DNA from: a virus
Length of the DNA stretch: 30,920 nt
Reading direction: 5' to 3' (one strand)
IMG/VR virus record: IMGVR_UViG_3300021197_001064
Coordinates: 1-30,920 of that record
A model generated the notes under the pieces. It did no database searches and was not told the origin of the DNA. It saw only the letters and a program-made list of their open reading frames with translations. Shown in pieces: positions 6,926 through 30,920 of the stretch; position 1 is the first letter of the stretch; each line of letters starts with the position of its first letter. The position numbers and the translations under genes are program-made.

Positions 6926-9846
6926 TGAGCGTAATTCAAAGACCTTTGTTTCGAGCAGCCGGTGGCGGCGCTAACAAGTTCCCAGATCTTAGCGGTGACG
7001 GCAAAGTCACTCAGAAAGACATATTGATGGGGCGTGGCGTTATTGAGAAGCAAGAAGGCGGCGGTATTGGCGCTATGATGCCTGCTGACGCTATGGCTAT
7101 GATGCCTGCTGACGCTATGGCTATGATGCCGGAGCAGATGCCTGCGGAAGCTCCTCTGGACCCGTTAGCTCAAGATGTGCTGATGGCTCGCGAAGAAGGC
7201 GAGAAAATTGGTTTGGATTACCTTGCTGAAACCATGGACGGCATCGACATGGCGAGCAACACGGAGGAGTTAATTAACTCAATCCGTGGTAATGACCGTC
7301 CCCTGCAAGATCGGGTAGCAGAGCTTGCCACGTTTGTGGGCGAGCAAGATGCTATGCAGACACCAGAGTCAGTACTGACGATGGTGCAGCCTACTATTAT
7401 GCTGTCGGAAGAAGGCGCTGTAGATAGCGGCGTGGGCGGCTTAATTCAACAAGTTCTCGGCGAAACCGATATGAACGACGAGATGGGCCAAGGCGTGGGC
7501 GCTTTGATGGCGCAGGGACAGCCCGAACCCATGGACGAGCCGGTGCAACAGTTTAACCAAGGCGGTGCCGTAAAAAAGTTCGCACCGGGTGGCGCAGTTA
7601 ACTTTGGCGACCCGGTCTATGACCCTACTTTTGGTACATCATTTAGTCCGCAGTCCATACGGACGGGCATTGCCGACGCAACGGCGGGCATAGGGCCTGT
7701 CCCGAATCTGGCGTCTATGCTTCCTGAAGAGTACGCGGCGCTATTACAAAGTGAGGCGCTACGGCGGCGTGAACCGCGAAGTGCAAGAGACGCTGCCGCA
7801 GAATACCAAACACTGATGGAAGAAGCTTATGACATCGAAGGTCAACGAGCTTTTTCTGATCGCGAAGCTGCGTTGGATTTAGCCCGAGCAGGGTTTGCTT
7901 TTGCCTCTGGCCGAGATCCAAAGACCGGTGAAAACATGGCCGGAAGAGGGTTTTTAGCCCAATTAGGCTCCGTGGGGCAGCAGTATGCAGAAAGCGCGGG
8001 TGAGCGACTAGCTAGAGAGCGTAAAGGTGAACAGGGAATTCGATTAGCTGCCATACAACAAGGGATTGCGGCAGAGCAGCGCGACCAAGAAGCGCAAGAA
8101 AGAAGTACTTCTGACGCTAGGCGCGCCCTTATTGAGGCGGGCTTGGACAAACGAAGACTTGATCAACAAGGTTTGATTACCGTAGCGGGTCTTAAGTCAG
8201 CGGGCGAAAATCTGGTTGCTGAGATCGGTTTTAACGCGTTTGAGAGCGATGCAAACCGAAAGTTCCAAGCGCAGCAAACTGACCGAAAAGCCGAGATAGA
8301 AGAAAACATCACGCGAGTCAGGGCAGATCTGACCGAAGCGCAAGCAGAACGAGACTTCGGTCGTCTTCAAACGCAAACGGAAACTTTGCGTAAAAACCAA
8401 CTAGAGCTTACAGGTGTAAACTTCAACAACGATTTGGCAATACAAACGGATCGGTTTGCTCGTCAGCGTGCCAATCAAACGGCCTTCATCAATTTGCAAG
8501 GCGGCATAGATCAAGCAATGCAAACTCAGCGGTTAGATCACACGACTTTGTTACAGAATATTCAGCAAGATTTTCTCGCAGGTCAGTCTGAGTTAGACCG
8601 AGACTTGCGAAGAGACTTGTCCGACGATGAATTAGATTATCGTCGCGAAGCTTTAGAGCTTAACCAAGAGAAGTTTGCGCAGGACAAGGCGTTAGCGCCT
8701 TCTACCGAAGATAGTTTTCTGTACGACGTTTCGGGCGGATTCGTTGGGCAAGGATCGCAAGCACGACAATTGAACGAGATCAATGCAGATATACAAAGAC
8801 TTCAGGCAGCAGCGTTAGCGCAGGGCATAGATCAAAACTTCTTGGCTAGGACAGACCAGAACATCGCTAATTACATTAATGTAGCTGATCTGGCTTTGCG
8901 CCAAGAACGGAGTGCCATGCTTAGAAGCGAGTCAGTTCTGGGTGCGCTACAAGCACGAGGTGCAGGACCGAAATTTGGCACAGCAGCGCAGCAAACGGAG
9001 CTTTTGGGCGACAGGAACGCTATTAATGCCTACGCTAAGGGATTAGATGTTCCGGGCTTTGAACTTGCGCTTAACAACATGTTTGGCACGGTGACTATGG
9101 ACAACCGTGGTAATCAAGTACCCGCACGTAAACTGACTCCGGCCCTGCGAGCCGCTCTTATAAAACGTAAAGAGGCTGGTTTCGTGATTCCAACGCTACC
9201 CGGTTTTGCGGGCGGTGGTGAGGTAGACATGGGCGCGGGGCAGGGTCTTCTTGATCCTGTCACGGGATATCGTTTTCCTATGACTCAAGAAACGTTAGAC
9301 CCAGAGCAGCTTCCTCGCACCTATGAGCCTACTATCACGCAGGACATAGCAGACATCACTAAGGCTACCGGCACGCAAGAGGGGCTTTTAAATATTGGGG
9401 GCGTTGCCCTCAACACCGTAGCGAACGCTATTTTTGGCACGGAAGCAGGGCTTGCTGCCGATACCCGACAGGCTAAAAAGGCCGTTGAAACACTAGGCAC
9501 GGTAGCTACTACCACTTTGATGGCTGCTATACCGGGTAAAGACAACGTCGAGCTACAGCGCATGCTGAAAAACATGCAAGTTCCCGCTGATTCGTTTAGC
9601 TTACAAGATGACGAAGCGTTGGATTACTTTAAGTTAGCGCGTAACACCATGGATCTTGGCATCAAAAACCAAGAAGACTTGTTAGACAATGCTAACCTGA
9701 CGCGGAAAGAAATCACTAAGGTGCAGACGGATCTGGCGCAGATGAACGCGATTCAAGCTGAGTATGACAACGTCATCAAAGCGTATGAGGCCAAGCTGAT
9801 GCCGTCTGAAGAAGTCTACGATTCATTGGATAAGTTTTTTAAGTAA
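6925..9846 (+). CDS. Large virion protein with EF-hand-like calcium loop
   Basis: This 973-residue protein starts MSVIQRPLFRAAGGG. Residues 21-32 (DLSGDGKVTQKD) match an EF-hand or dockerin calcium loop, with Asp21, Ser23, Asp25, Thr29 and Asp32 at ligand positions. Next comes a Met/Pro-rich tandem repeat (MMPADAMA). Gly-rich motifs (NQGGAVKKFAPGGAVNFG near residue 212; FAGGGEVDMG near residue 760) resemble the Gly motif in the 644-residue protein. Residues 270-590 are highly charged, Gln/Arg/Glu-rich and probably long coiled coil. There is no recognised enzyme domain. Its position between other giant structural genes supports a virion or injected protein. It starts in a TAATG overlap and is directly followed by the next gene. 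Confidence 0.65.
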   Translation: MSVIQRPLFRAAGGGANKFPDLSGDGKVTQKDILMGRGVIEKQEGGGIGAMMPADAMAMMPADAMAMMPEQMPAEAPLDPLAQDVLMAREEGEKIGLDYLAETMDGIDMASNTEELINSIRGNDRPLQDRVAELATFVGEQDAMQTPESVLTMVQPTIMLSEEGAVDSGVGGLIQQVLGETDMNDEMGQGVGALMAQGQPEPMDEPVQQFNQGGAVKKFAPGGAVNFGDPVYDPTFGTSFSPQSIRTGIADATAGIGPVPNLASMLPEEYAALLQSEALRRREPRSARDAAAEYQTLMEEAYDIEGQRAFSDREAALDLARAGFAFASGRDPKTGENMAGRGFLAQLGSVGQQYAESAGERLARERKGEQGIRLAAIQQGIAAEQRDQEAQERSTSDARRALIEAGLDKRRLDQQGLITVAGLKSAGENLVAEIGFNAFESDANRKFQAQQTDRKAEIEENITRVRADLTEAQAERDFGRLQTQTETLRKNQLELTGVNFNNDLAIQTDRFARQRANQTAFINLQGGIDQAMQTQRLDHTTLLQNIQQDFLAGQSELDRDLRRDLSDDELDYRREALELNQEKFAQDKALAPSTEDSFLYDVSGGFVGQGSQARQLNEINADIQRLQAAALAQGIDQNFLARTDQNIANYINVADLALRQERSAMLRSESVLGALQARGAGPKFGTAAQQTELLGDRNAINAYAKGLDVPGFELALNNMFGTVTMDNRGNQVPARKLTPALRAALIKRKEAGFVIPTLPGFAGGGEVDMGAGQGLLDPVTGYRFPMTQETLDPEQLPRTYEPTITQDIADITKATGTQEGLLNIGGVALNTVANAIFGTEAGLAADTRQAKKAVETLGTVATTTLMAAIPGKDNVELQRMLKNMQVPADSFSLQDDEALDYFKLARNTMDLGIKNQEDLLDNANLTRKEITKVQTDLAQMNAIQAEYDNVIKAYEAKLMPSEEVYDSLDKFFK
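7072..7130 (+). repeat. 24-bp in-frame tandem repeat
   Basis: The unit GCTATGATGCCTGCTGACG plus CTATG (24 bp) is present twice without change (7072-7095, 7096-7119) and a third time as the first 11 bases (7120-7130). It encodes repeats of Ala-Met-Met-Pro-Ala-Asp-Ala-Met in the 973-residue virion protein. Identical copies suggest recent slippage expansion. Confidence 0.9.
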
Positions 9847-23235: not shown

Positions 23236-23252
23236 GGCGTTCTCCCGAAAAA

Positions 23253-23352
23253 AGCCCCGCCTTCGGGCACGCGGACGGGAACGCGCAGGAAAGAGTATGT
23301 TAGCTCTTGCCCTAAAAAGTCCCGCCTTTGGGGCACGCGGACGGGAACGCGC
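23253..23352. repeat. Two GC-rich direct repeats of about 34 bp
   Basis: Copies at 23253-23286 and 23318-23352 share CACGCGGACGGGAACGCGC exactly and CCCGCCTT just before it, 65 bp apart. Flanking A-runs and CCC words are also shared, so the duplicated unit may be about 50 bp. On the minus strand, each unit reads GC-rich inverted sequence followed by a T-run (TTTTTT at 23247-23252; TTTTT at 23313-23317), resembling weak terminators or attenuators before the membrane miniprotein gene. The rest of the 23236-23404 gap holds no convincing gene. Confidence 0.75.
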
Positions 23353-25884: not shown

Positions 25885-25935
25885 TCGTTTGTCTAAGTTA
25901 TGTCTAAAACTGGGGGTATCTTTTAAAAGTTGAGT

Positions 25936-25948
25936 ATGCGATAATATG
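25936..25948 (+). promoter_or_regulatory. Promoter region with extended -10 (TGCGATAAT) and shared motif
   Basis: The motif ATGCGATAATATG contains an extended -10 (TG, one base, GATAAT at 25940-25945). TTGAGT lies immediately upstream (25930-25935) but is too close to act as -35 for this -10. The predicted start near 25952 puts the hairpin at 25955-25970 at the 5' end of the message. Confidence 0.45.
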
Positions 25949-25954
25949 CATACC

Positions 25955-25983
25955 GGTCGAGAAATCGACCAGATCTTTAACAA
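25955..25983 (+). promoter_or_regulatory. boxB-like hairpin followed by boxA-like element
   Basis: A perfect 6-bp stem with a GNRA tetraloop (GGTCGA-GAAA-TCGACC, 25955-25970) is followed two bases later by ATCTTTAACAA. The stretch 25972-25983 matches 10 of 12 positions of the E. coli rRNA boxA TGCTCTTTAACA (from memory). Hairpin-then-boxA is the order in rRNA leaders. A Nus-factor antitermination site is suggested. Confidence 0.45.
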
Positions 25984-25998: not shown

Positions 25999-26217
25999 AT
26001 GGAACAACATAAAATTACGGCGAATGTCTACGTCGTCAGCATGGTTCAAACGCTGGCGGGCGCACATCGAACTTTCGTCGGCGCTTACCCGACAATCGAA
26101 CTAGCCGGAGAAGCGAGGGTGCGCCAAGAGGAAATGTGGCACGACGCGATTGTTACGATCAGCGGCACCACACTCCACGACGCAGACAAATTAGATTTGC
26201 GGATTGAACGACAATGA
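25999..26217 (+). CDS. Small accessory protein, unknown function
   Basis: This 72-residue protein starts at an ATG preceded by TTGGAAAAAGTGAC, a leader also found before the DUF932 gene at 28025. It reads MEQHKITANVYVVSMVQTLA and continues with beta-strand-like and charged segments (GAYPTIELAGEARVRQEEMW). There is no known domain. It is first in a three-gene set joined by ATGA overlaps and follows the boxA-like leader, so its expression may be antitermination-controlled. Confidence 0.65.
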   Translation: MEQHKITANVYVVSMVQTLAGAHRTFVGAYPTIELAGEARVRQEEMWHDAIVTISGTTLHDADKLDLRIERQ

Positions 26218-26683: not shown

Positions 26684-27044
26684 GGGGACGGGAAAGAGGG
26701 TCGCGTAACGCGGTTCGCGGCGCTTGGTGCAAAAAAACGCGCTTCTATATAGTACTTTCCCAGAAAAAATATTTTTTGAAAAAAAAATTTCAAAAATGGC
26801 GGTACAGGCGGTACGGCGGTACAGCCCTTATAGGACGGGGCTTTCAGGCGTACCGTTGGCGTACCGGCGTGATTCAGGGCGTTACGGCCAAATGAAAAAA
26901 CGCGTAACTACATAGGACTTTTCGGGAACTTTTTTTTGTTTTGTTTTTTATTTCTCTAAAAAGACTATATAGGAACGTCCATTAAGGATTGACAGTGCGC
27001 GCTGGCCTATTGTTAGCCTGCGATAAATCCCATAGGAAACTGTT
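26684..27044. other. Non-coding AT-rich, repeat-rich region; candidate replication origin
   Basis: This 361-bp gap has no convincing gene. It holds A/T tracts (26761-26797 and 26931-26962), five CGGTAC cores (three in one direction at 26798-26822, two inverted at 26847-26866) and four related TATAGGAC-like words (near 26745, 26829, 26909 and 26966). An AT-rich unwinding element plus short iterated sites is the layout of many plasmid and phage origins. It lies between accessory genes rather than beside the polymerase. Confidence 0.4.
26798..26866. repeat. Short CGGTAC-core repeats, three direct and two inverted
   Basis: GGCGGTAC occurs at 26798-26805, 26807-26814 and 26815-26822. GGCGTACCG, whose complement contains CGGTAC, occurs at 26847-26855 and 26858-26866. 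The clustering of five copies in 69 bp is far above chance for a 6-mer and suggests binding sites of a protein acting on both strands. Confidence 0.75.
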
Positions 27045-27272
27045 GTGACTTGGCTACTTTTTAAAATTTTAGCGTGGTTTGAGAAAGGCCCTCAGCCGAC
27101 CGATAGCGTTGTGCAAAAACTGACCAAACAAAACGATAAACCCGCTGTTGATATTTATGGCCGGATAAGAGATAGTTCGCATACACCTATAAATAAGGAT
27201 GCGAACGATGAAACTTTTAGATACCCGAGCCACGAACACGAAAGTAAAGAAAACCCAGAAAAAACCGAATAG
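27045..27272 (+). CDS. Small protein with N-terminal hydrophobic helix (tentative)
   Basis: This 75-residue frame starts at GTG with AGGAAA eight bases upstream. The N-terminus (MTWLLFKILAWFEKGPQPTD) is a short hydrophobic, aromatic helix that may anchor in a membrane. The rest is polar and charged (HEHESKENPEKTE) and likely disordered. TTGACA at 26989-26994 is upstream but has no good -10. The 3' end overlaps the GP88-like gene by 65 bases in another frame, and a good promoter for that gene lies inside this frame, so the coding status is uncertain. Confidence 0.4.
   Translation: MTWLLFKILAWFEKGPQPTDSVVQKLTKQNDKPAVDIYGRIRDSSHTPINKDANDETFRYPSHEHESKENPEKTE
27148..27176 (+). promoter_or_regulatory. 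Candidate promoter of the GP88-like gene
   Basis: TTGATA (27148-27153) and GATAGT (27171-27176) are 17 bp apart. The predicted start near 27183 gives a leader of about 25 bases containing AAGGA (27195-27199), eight bases before the ATG at 27208. Confidence 0.5.
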
Positions 27273-27924
27273 CCACTTTGCGAAGCCGATCCGCATGGCG
27301 AGCCTAAGCATGATGCCGGACCATATTATTTGCGCCGGTAGCAAAGCCGCGAACTGTATGGAAGCCTGCCTAAAAGAAGCCGGACTTGCGGCAGTGTATG
27401 ACAGCGTCAACATTGCCCGTCAAGCAAAGACTGATTACTGGCACGCCGATCAATCTGGATTCCTCGCCCAACTCACCCGTGAATTGGCAAACTTTAAAAA
27501 ACTTTGTGATAAGCAAGGCATGCAAGGCGTTGTTCGGCTGAATGTGCTCAGTGATATACCGTGGGAAAAGCATGGCATCCCGCAGCAATTCCCCGATCTA
27601 TTTTTCTATGACTACACGAAGCAAGCGAAGCGATTGGACAACACTCTAGGCAATTACCGGTTGATGTTTAGCTACAGCGACCGCCCTCAATACCAAAACC
27701 AAGTAGCCGCCGCGCTGCCCACTGGCGTCCCCGTCGCAGTAGTTTTTAAAAATTCGATGCCGAGCGAATACCTTGGCCGACCGGTTATTGATGGTGATCT
27801 GTCAGATTTGGATAACGTAATGGCCGGTCCGGTCGTCGTCGGTCTGACGGCTAAGGGTCCGGCACTGCACGACGATTCTGGTTTCGTGGTGGACGGGAAT
27901 ATCATCCTACGCGCCGCCGCGTAA
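27208..27924 (+). CDS. GP88-like phage protein (Cys-containing, unknown function)
   Basis: This 238-residue protein is called from the ATG at 27208 because AAGGA is eight bases upstream; an in-frame ATG three codons earlier overlaps that site. After a basic N-terminus comes IICAGSKAANCMEACL (Cys near residues 43, 51, 55), a helix-rich middle, then VVRLNVLSDIPWE and FPDLFFYDYTKQAKR. This order (Cys cluster, V-R-L...SD, F-Y-x-Y-T-K) recalls the phage family called gene product 88 or related DUF entries; this is from memory. No activity has been established for the family, as far as I know. It is followed by an A-rich stretch (27925-27940) and the promoter region of the DUF932 gene. Confidence 0.65.
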   Translation: MKLLDTRATNTKVKKTQKKPNSHFAKPIRMASLSMMPDHIICAGSKAANCMEACLKEAGLAAVYDSVNIARQAKTDYWHADQSGFLAQLTRELANFKKLCDKQGMQGVVRLNVLSDIPWEKHGIPQQFPDLFFYDYTKQAKRLDNTLGNYRLMFSYSDRPQYQNQVAAALPTGVPVAVVFKNSMPSEYLGRPVIDGDLSDLDNVMAGPVVVGLTAKGPALHDDSGFVVDGNIILRAAA

Positions 27925-27941
27925 ACTTTTAAAAAAAACCA

Positions 27942-27969
27942 TTGCACTCGCGTGCATATATGAGACTAT
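27942..27969 (+). promoter_or_regulatory. Weak candidate promoter and leader of the DUF932 gene
   Basis: TTGCAC (27942-27947) and GACTAT (27964-27969), the latter preceded by TGA as an extended -10, are 16 bp apart. A small hairpin TGCAC-TCGC-GTGCA overlaps the -35. Downstream, GGGCG-CACCGCA-CGCCC (27990-28006) can form a leader hairpin, followed by ATTGGAAAAGTGACATG, the same ribosome-binding leader as at 25999. Confidence 0.35.
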
Positions 27970-28024
27970 TCGCATGCGGTAAACATTTAGGGCGCACCGC
28001 ACGCCCCACAATTGGAAAAGTGAC

Positions 28025-29149
28025 ATGTTAAATACTACGTTAGAGAACGCGAACGGAACGCTGGAAAACATCCTTCGACAGATCAGCGAGCAAGCCAGCC
28101 GAAAAGCCGACTATATTGCCCCGACCGATCAGTTACAGGTGCAAACCCGCGACGGGAATACCAACATTGTTTTGGAGGCGAACGGCGGCATGCCGACGCA
28201 ACAATTCACGACTAACGAAATTGCATTCCAGCAACTGGCAAGCAATTGCGATATCGATGTTCGGACCGCTCGCCGGTTACGTGACAACGACAACTATGCG
28301 CCGGAATTCGATAACCTAATTAACAAAATTCTGGTAAATGAGCCGAAGTCTAAAATGCTCCGCACGTTCGACGGCGATCAGCCGCTTGTTCGCGCCATCG
28401 TTAGCGACAAGTTTAAGACGTTCGACAATGTCGATCTGGTGCAGGCCGCGCTCCCGCAATTGATGGAATCCGAAGCGAATTGGAAAATCGTTAACGGGAC
28501 CGTCACCGACTCTCGCCTTTACATGAGACTGAAATCGGAGAACCAAGTAGCCGAACCCGCGATAGGTGACGCCATGGCGAACGGCATCATGCTGCGCAAT
28601 AGCGAGGTAGGCATGGGTAGCGTGGAAGTTATGCAAATGGTATGGACGTTGTGGTGCCTAAACGGATGCAGTAGCGAGAAAAAAAGTCGCCACACTCATG
28701 TCACCAGCGCACGCGGGACCGAGGATTGGTCTTTGCTCACCAGTGAAGCAAAAGACGCGGACAATCACGCGCTGCAACTGAAATTGCGCGACGTTGTCGC
28801 CGGTTACACTTCCCGCGATAGTTTTGACGAAGCCGTCGAAATGTTCCGGATCGCGCACGGGGACATTGTCGAGAATGGTTTAGCCAATCCCGCCGCCGTC
28901 GTCGATAGCGTCGTCAAAGTGTTAAGCCTCCCGAAAAAATCGTCCGAATCGATAATGGCCGGCCTTATGCAAACGATCCAGCAGAGCGGATACCGTGACA
29001 AGCCTATCAGCCGTGCAACCTTAGTTAACGCGGTTACCGCCGTCGCGCACACTGCCGACGCTGATTCTGTGGATGATTGGTATTCGCACGGTCGCGCCGT
29101 TCTAGACTTGCCGCGTAACCAGTGGGAGACAATCGCGCTAGCAGCCTGA
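28025..29149 (+). CDS. DUF932 family protein
   Basis: This 374-residue protein fits the DUF932 (YfjQ/YubP-like) family: N-terminal region with QFTTNEIAFQQLASNCDI, then the characteristic DQPLVRAIVSDKFKTFDNVD and later LRNSEVGMGSVEVMQMVWTL and a Cys (WCLNGC). DUF932 proteins occur in phages, plasmids and conjugative elements, often near ssDNA or anti-restriction genes; function is unproven. A well-formed ribosome-binding leader precedes the ATG. A strong rho-independent terminator follows at 29173, so it is a single-gene unit. The size is close to typical family members (about 300-400 residues). Confidence 0.85.
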   Translation: MLNTTLENANGTLENILRQISEQASRKADYIAPTDQLQVQTRDGNTNIVLEANGGMPTQQFTTNEIAFQQLASNCDIDVRTARRLRDNDNYAPEFDNLINKILVNEPKSKMLRTFDGDQPLVRAIVSDKFKTFDNVDLVQAALPQLMESEANWKIVNGTVTDSRLYMRLKSENQVAEPAIGDAMANGIMLRNSEVGMGSVEVMQMVWTLWCLNGCSSEKKSRHTHVTSARGTEDWSLLTSEAKDADNHALQLKLRDVVAGYTSRDSFDEAVEMFRIAHGDIVENGLANPAAVVDSVVKVLSLPKKSSESIMAGLMQTIQQSGYRDKPISRATLVNAVTAVAHTADADSVDDWYSHGRAVLDLPRNQWETIALAA

Positions 29150-29172
29150 TCGGCCCCCTCATCCGCTCCAAT

Positions 29173-29200
29173 AGCCCGCCAACGTGCGGGCTTTTCTTTT
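29173..29200 (+). terminator. Rho-independent terminator after the DUF932 gene
   Basis: Stem AGCCCGC / GCGGGCT (29173-29179 with 29186-29192) with a six-base loop is followed by TTTCTTTT. The same stem recurs at 29929. Confidence 0.85.
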
Positions 29201-29202
29201 GC

Positions 29203-29221
29203 ATGGGATTAATCTTATACT
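29203..29221 (+). promoter_or_regulatory. Promoter-like element, copy 1 (ATGGGATTA...TATACT)
   Basis: TATACT (29216-29221) lies directly after the terminator and 39 bases before the ATG at 29261. It has no good -35, but shares GCATG, GATTA, TATACT, ACGCCA and GGCGCAA with the region before 30023. Confidence 0.5.
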
Positions 29222-29260
29222 GGGCGCACGCCATACCGGCGCAATATAGGAAAAACGAAA

Positions 29261-29662
29261 ATGAAAACAGTGATACAGATACGGCCCGCAAAGGTTTTAC
29301 TGCAATGGATACTCGACCCGACCGCCAGTTATGATTTCAGCCGCGACGAATTGCAGGAAATGTGCGGCATCATCCCCGACTTTTTTGCCGAAGCCGTGCT
29401 ACAAGAAAAAGCCGCAACGATAGAAGAAGCCGCGCAAGTGATGGACGACTGCTATCAGATGGGCGGATTTAATCAATACCCATTCTCGGGCACGCTGGAC
29501 GCTGACGGCATTTACCATAGCGACGGCGACGATCCGCTGCCGCCGCTGCTAAAACTTTGCGCGCTCGACGAACCCAACGACAGCGTGACGTGCTACGTCT
29601 ACCCGTATGGCATTGTGGCGGTCGCTACCCTGTATGATTCAAAAATTGCGAGGTTCGACTAG
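29261..29662 (+). CDS. Acidic accessory protein, unknown function
   Basis: This 133-residue protein starts at an ATG nine to ten bases after AGGA. It is acidic with an internal His/Asp-rich stretch (DADGIYHSDGDDPLPP) and a helical N-terminal half (RDELQEMCGIIPDFFAEAVL). No known domain is recognised. It is preceded by its own promoter-like cassette and overlaps the next gene by one base, so the two are co-expressed. The sequence TVIQIRPAKVLLQWI at the start may form a strand and helix. Confidence 0.65.
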   Translation: MKTVIQIRPAKVLLQWILDPTASYDFSRDELQEMCGIIPDFFAEAVLQEKAATIEEAAQVMDDCYQMGGFNQYPFSGTLDADGIYHSDGDDPLPPLLKLCALDEPNDSVTCYVYPYGIVAVATLYDSKIARFD

Positions 29663-29904
29663 TGAAAAACCCCATGCCACAATTCATCGATCATCTTGCC
29701 CAGTTCACCTCCGATCAACAGTGCGCACTGGTGCGCATTTTCTGTCGCCACATTCGAGACACCGACCACCCTTTATACAAAGGCGTCGGCTTCGTGGATT
29801 GGGTGGCGCGGGATTGTTACCCGCTACACTTCGCTGGCTGCGCGATGGCGAACGTCCCCGATATGGTCATCGGCATCGAGCGCGACGGCTACGCGCACAC
29901 TTAA
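29662..29904 (+). CDS. Small protein, unknown function, GTG start
   Basis: This 80-residue protein starts at a GTG one base overlapping the previous stop; an ATG four codons in is an alternative. It has three Cys (residues 21, 28 and 52) and a His-rich middle (CRHIRDTDHPLYKGVGFVDW). There is no membrane segment. It ends 25 bases before a terminator. No family is recognised. Confidence 0.6.
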   Translation: MKNPMPQFIDHLAQFTSDQQCALVRIFCRHIRDTDHPLYKGVGFVDWVARDCYPLHFAGCAMANVPDMVIGIERDGYAHT

Positions 29905-29928
29905 CCCGCCGATCATTCGGCCCCGCCA

Positions 29929-29954
29929 AGCCCGCCAATGTGCGGGCTTTTTTT
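29929..29954 (+). terminator. Rho-independent terminator, copy 2
   Basis: The stem AGCCCGC / GCGGGCT (29929-29935 with 29942-29948) with a CAATGT loop is followed by TTTTTT. It is nearly identical to the terminator at 29173. Confidence 0.88.
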
Positions 29955-29958
29955 ATGC

Positions 29959-29977
29959 ATGCGATTAGTTGTATACT
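29959..29977 (+). promoter_or_regulatory. Promoter-like element, copy 2 (ATGCGATTA...TATACT)
   Basis: TATACT (29972-29977) follows ATGCGATTA (29959-29967). The message would run into the 133-residue gene at 30023. The block matches copy 1 over about 60 bp, including the terminator. Confidence 0.5.
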
Positions 29978-30022
29978 CCGCGAACGCCACGAACCGCTGG
30001 CGCAACATTGGAGCACCGAACT

Positions 30023-30424
30023 ATGAACATCGAAAACCAAAACCAACCCGCCACGCGTGAATCTATGGCCGAGTATCTCGACCGGCTCGCCGCCGATCAG
30101 ATAGAAGCCGGACTCGACGCGACCGGCGCGGACATAAAAGCCGCCGCCGTTGAGATCCGAAAGCTTTCGCAGAAAGTCGATCAAATGGCCGCCGCTATGG
30201 CGACCGTCGCTTACCGCGAGGATCAACTTGCTAGCGCGTTGTTTGGATTGATCGAAGACCGCGTGCAATCGCTAGTCGAAACCGAGCTAGATAATTACGA
30301 CCCGACCGATCATTACAATTTTTCCGACGCGGTCGCCGAGCAAGTCGGCGAATCTGGCGAGGATCGGACCCGCGACATAGTCCGCGAAGTGATCGAGGGC
30401 GGATCTGTTACCTTCCACGTCTGA
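30023..30424 (+). CDS. Helical accessory protein, unknown function
   Basis: This 133-residue protein starts at the ATG at 30023, which has TTGGAG about ten bases upstream; a longer frame from 29969 would start in the promoter. The N-terminal half is helical and charged (EYLDRLAADQIEAGL, DIKAAAVEIRKLSQKVDQMA), likely a coiled coil. The C-terminal half is acidic (VETELDNYDPTDHYNFSDAV). It is the last gene seen and is followed by a strong terminator at 30445. No family is recognised. Confidence 0.65.
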   Translation: MNIENQNQPATRESMAEYLDRLAADQIEAGLDATGADIKAAAVEIRKLSQKVDQMAAAMATVAYREDQLASALFGLIEDRVQSLVETELDNYDPTDHYNFSDAVAEQVGESGEDRTRDIVREVIEGGSVTFHV

Positions 30425-30444
30425 TCGATAAACCCGATCCAATC

Positions 30445-30469
30445 AACCCCGCCGAGCGCGGGGTTTTTT
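30445..30469 (+). terminator. Rho-independent terminator after the last gene
   Basis: Stem AACCCCGC / GCGGGGTT (30445-30452 with 30458-30465) with a CGAGC loop is followed by TTTT and TG. Confidence 0.9.
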
Positions 30470-30920
30470 GTGTCTTTTAAAAAAGTGAAACATGCCGCGC
30501 CCCGCCTCCCGCTCGCCGGTTGAAACGTACCGCGATCCGCGCTCCCCGATCCACGATTGGCTAAACCTATTAAAAGTTGGCCGATCTGGCCGCGATCCTC
30601 CCTGATCGGAGCCAGAATCCCCGATCCACGATTGATCCCGACTATCGAACCGCGCCCGATCCGCGCCCCGCGATCCGCGAACCGCGCTAAACTTTCGTCG
30701 GTTTGATCGCCGTTGGACGTTTCCCGCCGCCGGTTTGGAAGTTTCCGTTTAACTTCCACCCGCCGCGCCCTACCCGAGCCGGACCGCGCCGGACCCAACC
30801 GCGCTACCCTTTCGTCGGTACGTTTTCCCGCGGGAGTTCCCCTCCGCCGGCTTACAAGTTTCCCGTTTGACTTCACACCGCCGCTGCTGCCGACTGTCCC
30901 GTCGGCTGACCAGCCGCGGC
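30470..30920. other. GC-rich non-coding end region
   Basis: This stretch holds no convincing gene. It is very GC-rich, full of CGATCC and CCGCG words (CCCGATCCACGATTG twice, near 30547 and 30618), and contains a 117-bp tandem repeat. A minus-strand frame is open from the window edge to 30313 but runs through the terminator and the end of the preceding gene; its Arg-rich sequence looks like a product of base composition. Confidence 0.6.
30680..30913. repeat. 117-bp imperfect tandem repeat
   Basis: Unit 1 begins at 30680 and unit 2 at 30797, each with AACCGCGCTA followed by CTTTCGTCGGT, and both later contain GTTTCC...GTTT.ACTTC and CCGCCGC at the same 117-bp offset (30741 and 30858). Copies differ by many substitutions and small indels, so the duplication is old. 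The unit length equals 39 codons. Confidence 0.8.

Follow-up and report, generated by a model that had tools for sequence, protein, structure and literature searches.

A repeated terminator-promoter-like module with a leader hairpin at a locus of small-gene turnover in mostly uncultured relatives of phages HTVC023P and DSL-LC04

Two small genes in one stretch of viral DNA are preceded by nearly the same noncoding block, which raises the question of what the block does and whether it takes part in the gain and loss of genes at this place. The window analysed is the whole IMG/VR record, 30,920 bases, and is probably a fragment of a tailed-phage genome. The first-pass annotation had taken the block for a portable insulating cassette, comparable to phage morons, through which small genes could be inserted as independent units.

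Genomic context

By DNA polymerase, the nearest sequenced isolates were phage 023Pt_psg01 (54%), phage DSL-LC04 (54%) and Pelagibacter phage HTVC023P (53%), and the phage group, relatives of HTVC023P and DSL-LC04, is mostly uncultured and aquatic. No match was found when positions 26900-30920 were compared with phage records by blastn. A DUF932-like gene on the plus strand (28025-29149, 374 aa; PHROG 1362, E=2.5e-30; Pfam DUF932 only below the cut-off) formed the left flank and the conserved left border of the variable region. Relatives were gathered through this gene, and 80 loci on viral contigs were kept. In relatives the cassette locus lies between the DUF932-like gene and a gene for a 184-aa protein, followed by the large terminase gene (Terminase_6C, E=2.8e-11). 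The 184-aa protein had no Pfam match and was taken as the terminase small subunit, judged by its position.

The leader of the DUF932-like gene (27988-28027) carried a GGGCG/CGCCC hairpin before the ribosome site, with a stability not above that of shuffles (z -0.92). The stretch 30470-30920, ahead of the terminase genes, was GC-rich and without a convincing gene, and it contained CGATCCGCG-like repeats and a 67-nt direct repeat (30680/30797, 75%). Similar GC-rich stretches occupy the same place in relatives.

The two cassettes of the window

Copy 1 (29173-29260) and copy 2 (29929-30022) shared a direct repeat of 61 nt with 84% identity (29173-29233 and 29929-29989, repeat search of the window), which bears out the duplicated terminator-promoter order noticed earlier before the genes at 29261 and 30023. 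A terminator hairpin, a T-run, GCATGnGATTA, TATACT and a leader were common to both copies. The core motif GCATGSGATTANTNNTATACT, with up to 3 mismatches, had two sites in the 30,920 bases against 0.03 expected, a number that none of 100 shuffles reached, and the pattern TATANT-N4..8-ACGCC-N4..12-GGCGCAA matched twice in the window against 0.00 expected.

The order of the module was terminator hairpin, T-rich stretch with GCATGnGATTA, TATACT, 6 nt, A, hairpin CGCC...GGCG, CAAYAT, ribosome site and ATG, with all features on the plus strand. In cassette 1, folding placed the putative terminator hairpin (AGCCCGC/GCGGGCT) at 29173-29192, with the T-run at 29193-29200. It was followed by a candidate promoter block from motif search (29201-29221), composed of GCATGGGATTAATCT and the -10-like TATACT (29216-29221), and, 6 nt behind the -10 box, by a folded leader hairpin of type I (29228-29241, ACGCC-ATACC-GGCG). 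Cassette 2 opened with the putative terminator hairpin between units 1 and 2 (29928-29949, scan and fold), then came the candidate promoter block (29957-29977, motif search; GCATGCGATTAGTTG and TATACT at 29972-29977) and a folded leader hairpin of type II (29984-30002, CGCCA/TGGCG with an 8-nt loop). The terminator hairpins of copies 1 and 2 had energies of -13.3 and -14.3 kcal/mol, and for each copy none of 200 shuffles was as stable. A third terminator hairpin of the region (30445-30465, scan and fold) closed unit 2.

The CGCC...GGCG element, unremarked in the first-pass annotation, is an RNA hairpin directly behind the -10 box. As a general rule transcription starts about 7 nt behind a -10 box, so the transcript would begin at the leader hairpin. 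Taken alone, the leader hairpins of the two copies were unexceptional against shuffles (z -1.23 and -1.34). A -35 box at the usual distance was absent at both cassettes, and a generic sigma-70 scan listed neither as a promoter; over the region the generic scan gave no excess over shuffles, with 7 promoter-like sites against 6.9 and 13 terminator-like sites against 12.0.

Cassette 1 preceded two slot I genes without family match, the first of 133 aa (29261-29662), whose place is taken by unrelated genes in relatives, and the second of 80 aa (29662-29904, from ORF and family searches). Cassette 2 preceded the slot II gene (30023-30424, 133 aa), to which no family was assigned from its ORF, Pfam and BLASTP. 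Pfam gave nothing above the cut-off for the slot genes. The proteins downstream of the two cassettes had no BLASTP match to one another at E<1, in line with the earlier statement that the downstream genes are unrelated.

Two other places in the window attracted attention. On the minus strand, 23244-23352 held a 43-nt direct repeat (84%, 66 nt apart) with a GC-rich hairpin-like stretch and a T-run, possibly another duplicated terminator block. At 25935-25975 the promoter-like site TATGCGATAAT was followed by a GGTCGA-GAAA-TCGACC hairpin ahead of the gene at 25999, in a style that matches the cassettes.

Cassette family in close relatives

Over all loci 28 distinct cassettes were collected, 11 with leader type I, 11 with type II and 6 with type III, and each close relative carried one to three of them where its contig extends far enough past the DUF932-like gene. 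The layout was conserved. The -10 box TATA[AC]T was present in 28/28, although the search patterns fixed the TATA box and the CCCGC/GCGGG arms with at most 2 mismatches, so conservation there is partly built in. Spacing and variable pairs were not fixed by these patterns. The discriminator up to the leader hairpin measured exactly 6 nt in all 28, and the terminator stem was 24 nt from TATAMT in 17 cassettes and 23 nt away in the other 11.

Terminator pairs were counted per sequence by script, because the MAFFT alignment misplaces the 3' arm of some terminators. The variable outer pair was G-C in 15 and C-G in 13 cassettes and broken in none of the 28, for which the chance under random pairing is 2.7e-8 with kinship ignored; the swap could be a recurrent compensatory mutation. 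In type II leaders the fifth pair was A-T or C-G and one G-U stood in the fourth, with none broken among 7 distinct rows; this covariation concerns one pair in those 7 rows and was equalled by 20 of 500 shuffles. Type III stems had additional G-C and A-T pairs, where type I has A-C, unpaired.

The first-pass annotation had called for a search for further copies, and the 28 versions were its yield; in the six records that gave a match, all cassettes lay within this region. At position 729 of contig L150, on the minus strand, a leader resembling type I but lacking a terminator was left out of the 28. Two other search patterns gave 31 and at least 119 stretches, many of them chance matches and most without a terminator. 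In bacterial and archaeal genome contigs the promoter-plus-leader pattern matched 56 stretches, three of them with the GGCGCA arm and none with a terminator in front, and thus no host or prophage copy was found.

Gene turnover and recombination at the cassettes

In a tally of ten contigs that leaves out near-duplicates, unit I stood alone in L040 and L046, units I and II in the window, L010, L034, L038 and L050, all three units in L037 and L041, and units II and III in L048. Thus L046 and L040 are without units II and III, and L048 is without unit I. Unit III alone was found in L205, where the left gene is different. Five different unit sets at one locus amount to strong gene turnover there.

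The genes inside the units also varied. Type I leaders stand before METV-like (133-137 aa), MQAI (77 aa) or MNIM (90 aa) proteins, which had no BLASTP match among one another at E<0.1, and the slot I gene of L041 was MQAI by BLASTP. Type III leaders stand before MENF or MQDI, again with no BLASTP match between them at E<0.1. The type II leader was found before one gene family only (11/11 distinct copies). A weak match joined MNIM to one slot II protein (E=0.015 over 39 residues). In L012 the slot I gene MNIM (6946-7218) ends in the last seven residues of the second slot I gene, which MNIM replaces, and this fused end was probably left by the replacement. Both unit sets and slot genes therefore vary among relatives, a point that the first-pass annotation had proposed to check, and no relative was seen with the same gene content and no cassette.

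Promoter and gene variants were reshuffled. In slot I, METV and MQAI genes occurred with the promoter haplotypes TATACT..GCGC and TATAAT..GATC in all four combinations among 11 distinct cassettes. A C-containing T-run was observed in 8/11 type I, 0/6 type III and 1/11 type II cassettes. The sole type II cassette with this T-run is that of L048, where unit I is absent and the type II leader is in the first position, as would be expected if a crossover inside cassettes had removed unit I.

Identity between relatives was mosaic and shifted sharply at cassettes. Between L010 and L046 the left gene was 75% identical and the right gene 99%, with the rise just after the last terminator; for L010 and L034, identity was about 90% as far as the cassette, dropped to 41% within the slot I gene and recovered to 88% beyond it. 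Breaks away from cassettes exist too, since L034 and L038 diverge inside the second slot I gene. Taken together, the differences among relatives suggest that the module is where units come and go and where they receive new genes.

Distant relatives and cultured isolates

Relatives at 47-58% had the same order in other letters, with a terminator, TATGCGATA, a leader hairpin such as CCGCAATGTTGCGG or GCGGTAATGATGCCGC, ACTTTGGGA and ATG. The leader hairpin was absent in the most AT-rich of them (L107-L109). In all, 76 distinct units stood ahead of 17 gene clusters, of which at least two (30 and 39 aa) look like miscalled starts. These units were chosen by requiring a terminator, so their terminators are no independent test. 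Among 74 leaders tested, 66 folded better than the shuffle mean, with an average of -9.3 against -6.4 kcal/mol, seven had no hairpin and one folded slightly worse; many of the 74 are near copies and do not count as independent cases. In L077, TATGCGATAC-like sites were in excess (8 against 0.61).

In the cultured isolates DSL-LC04 (L225, 31039-32778) and HTVC023P (L226, 13055-16145), small genes lying between terS and terL are preceded by repeated leader boxes of a different kind; 4 of 6 box matches in DSL-LC04 and 4 of 7 in HTVC023P fell in this interval.

Proposed role and alternative explanations

We consider it likely, from comparison of the sequences, that the module acts as an insulator and a driver of single small genes and, in addition, as a place where genes are exchanged. 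In this composite intergenic module, a terminator and a T-rich stretch (about 24 nt) are followed by the promoter, a 6-nt discriminator, a hairpin at or next to the transcript 5' end, a ribosome-binding site and ATG. The terminator would end the upstream unit and the promoter would start a new short transcript, whose 5' hairpin probably protects or presents the mRNA. Each small gene or gene pair could then be an independent transcription unit, open to insertion, loss or replacement that leaves its neighbours undisturbed. Genes would be exchanged at module borders because mutually similar modules act as short homologies for phage recombination. From the sequence we infer that the promoter and terminator are active, that the hairpin has this role and that exchange proceeds by homologous recombination. 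A broader proposal is tentative and in our judgement falls somewhat short of probable: phages outside the T4 group may have independently evolved composite modules that are at once transcription insulators and recombination platforms, with the layout kept in this aquatic group while nearly every letter changes between clades, and what is selected may be a modular "socket" for accessory genes.

The block could instead mark ordinary operon borders, where every small gene is served by a separate terminator and promoter, the promoters being alike since one polymerase uses them at one time, and where turnover comes from the usual illegitimate recombination without a role for the cassette. Leader types do track gene slots, and distant relatives keep the layout with other letters, as selection on function predicts. 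TGCGATA also stands ahead of other genes in the window, with no significant excess (TGCGATAW, 4 sites against 1.6 expected, reached by 8 of 100 shuffles). We nevertheless regard this explanation as unlikely, for identity breaks at cassettes, all four promoter and gene combinations occur, and in L048 a cassette that combines a slot-I-type tail with a slot-II leader stands at the very place where unit I is absent.

A cassette that was simply duplicated in tandem not long ago in this genome, and that signifies nothing further, would account for the 84% identity of the window's two copies; we give this explanation next to no probability. It is contradicted by the slot-specific leaders: the same two slots, with their own leader types, exist in relatives whose left gene is 73-89% identical to that of the window, and same-slot copies across genomes seem closer to each other than a genome's two copies do. 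The position beside the terminase genes and the GCATGnGATTA upstream of the -10 box would agree with a repeated block whose main function is that of a protein-binding operator or of a signal for replication or packaging, and not that of a promoter. The order and spacing of -10 box, 6 nt and hairpin, fixed in 28/28, and the presence in distant relatives of hairpins that differ in sequence at the corresponding site give this explanation very little chance.

For the module as insulator and exchange site, the idea of a portable insulating cassette thus holds in part. Units are present or absent between the same flanks, unrelated genes stand behind the same leader type, and promoter and gene variants are reshuffled; however, there are three leader types and they are not freely portable, type II being tied to a single gene family (11/11) and the units being confined to one locus in the records searched.

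Comparison with known systems

In lambdoid-phage morons, a gene with its own promoter and terminator, expressed from the prophage, is present or absent between conserved neighbours. The likeness drawn at first holds in so far as an independent unit is present or absent between conserved genes here (L046, L040, L048), but here consecutive units are headed by copies of one control block, and the parallel is looser than that with the PeSL cassettes of T4-type phages.

A PeSL (promoter early stem-loop) belongs to a T4-type phage and has a T4 early promoter. PeSLs have reportedly been called "mobile regulatory cassettes" of T4-type phages, in work by Arbiol et al. 2010 and Comeau et al. 2014. They are described as composites of promoter and stem-loop, repeated between genes of a variable region and proposed to mediate modular shuffling (PMC4503421). 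The module resembles them as a putative promoter and stem-loop composite between genes, in several similar copies (2 in the window, 1-3 in relatives), within a region of strong gene turnover (five unit sets, one locus). Recombination at the cassette, as proposed for PeSLs, would fit the four-combination result and the mosaic identity. The module differs in its single fixed block with the terminator ahead of the promoter, in an additional leader hairpin at the 5' end and in having one locus of 1-3 units; in addition, the phage group is not T4-like by the genes tested, and there is no -35 box. The PeSL is the closest known kind, and the module would work like one but is not classed as one; the added 5'-terminal leader hairpin is new relative to it.

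In the haloarchaeal tailed virus HGTV-1, a TATA-box and inverted-repeat motif ahead of many ORFs was likened to PeSLs, according to excerpts of the report (PMC3950731), and the likeness here, on that text, is a repeated promoter-like motif with an inverted repeat before ORFs. In cluster K mycobacteriophages, SAS/ESAS is described as a conserved block at the start site, repeated ahead of some of the genes and bearing inverted repeats and a putative SigA promoter (PMC3203893, PMC11373665), and departures in the inverted repeats generally do not support RNA pairing (PMC3203893). The 13-bp SAS GGGATAGGAGCCC, as given in PMC3203893, was absent from both window leaders. In contrast to cluster K, the hairpins here stay paired, and the SAS/ESAS block, as described in those passages, includes no terminator.

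The words promoter, terminator, stem-loop and intergenic are all absent from the main text of the study on HTVC023P-type phages (PMC9599517), and a literature search, mostly of titles and the beginnings of abstracts, gave no description of the module in this phage group. The finding suggests that phages of a second group, too, keep short control modules in place while their accessory genes change. If this is true, the modules would guide the search for small genes recently gained by uncultured phages, and they would offer a testable case of how phages may add genes without breaking the expression of their neighbours.
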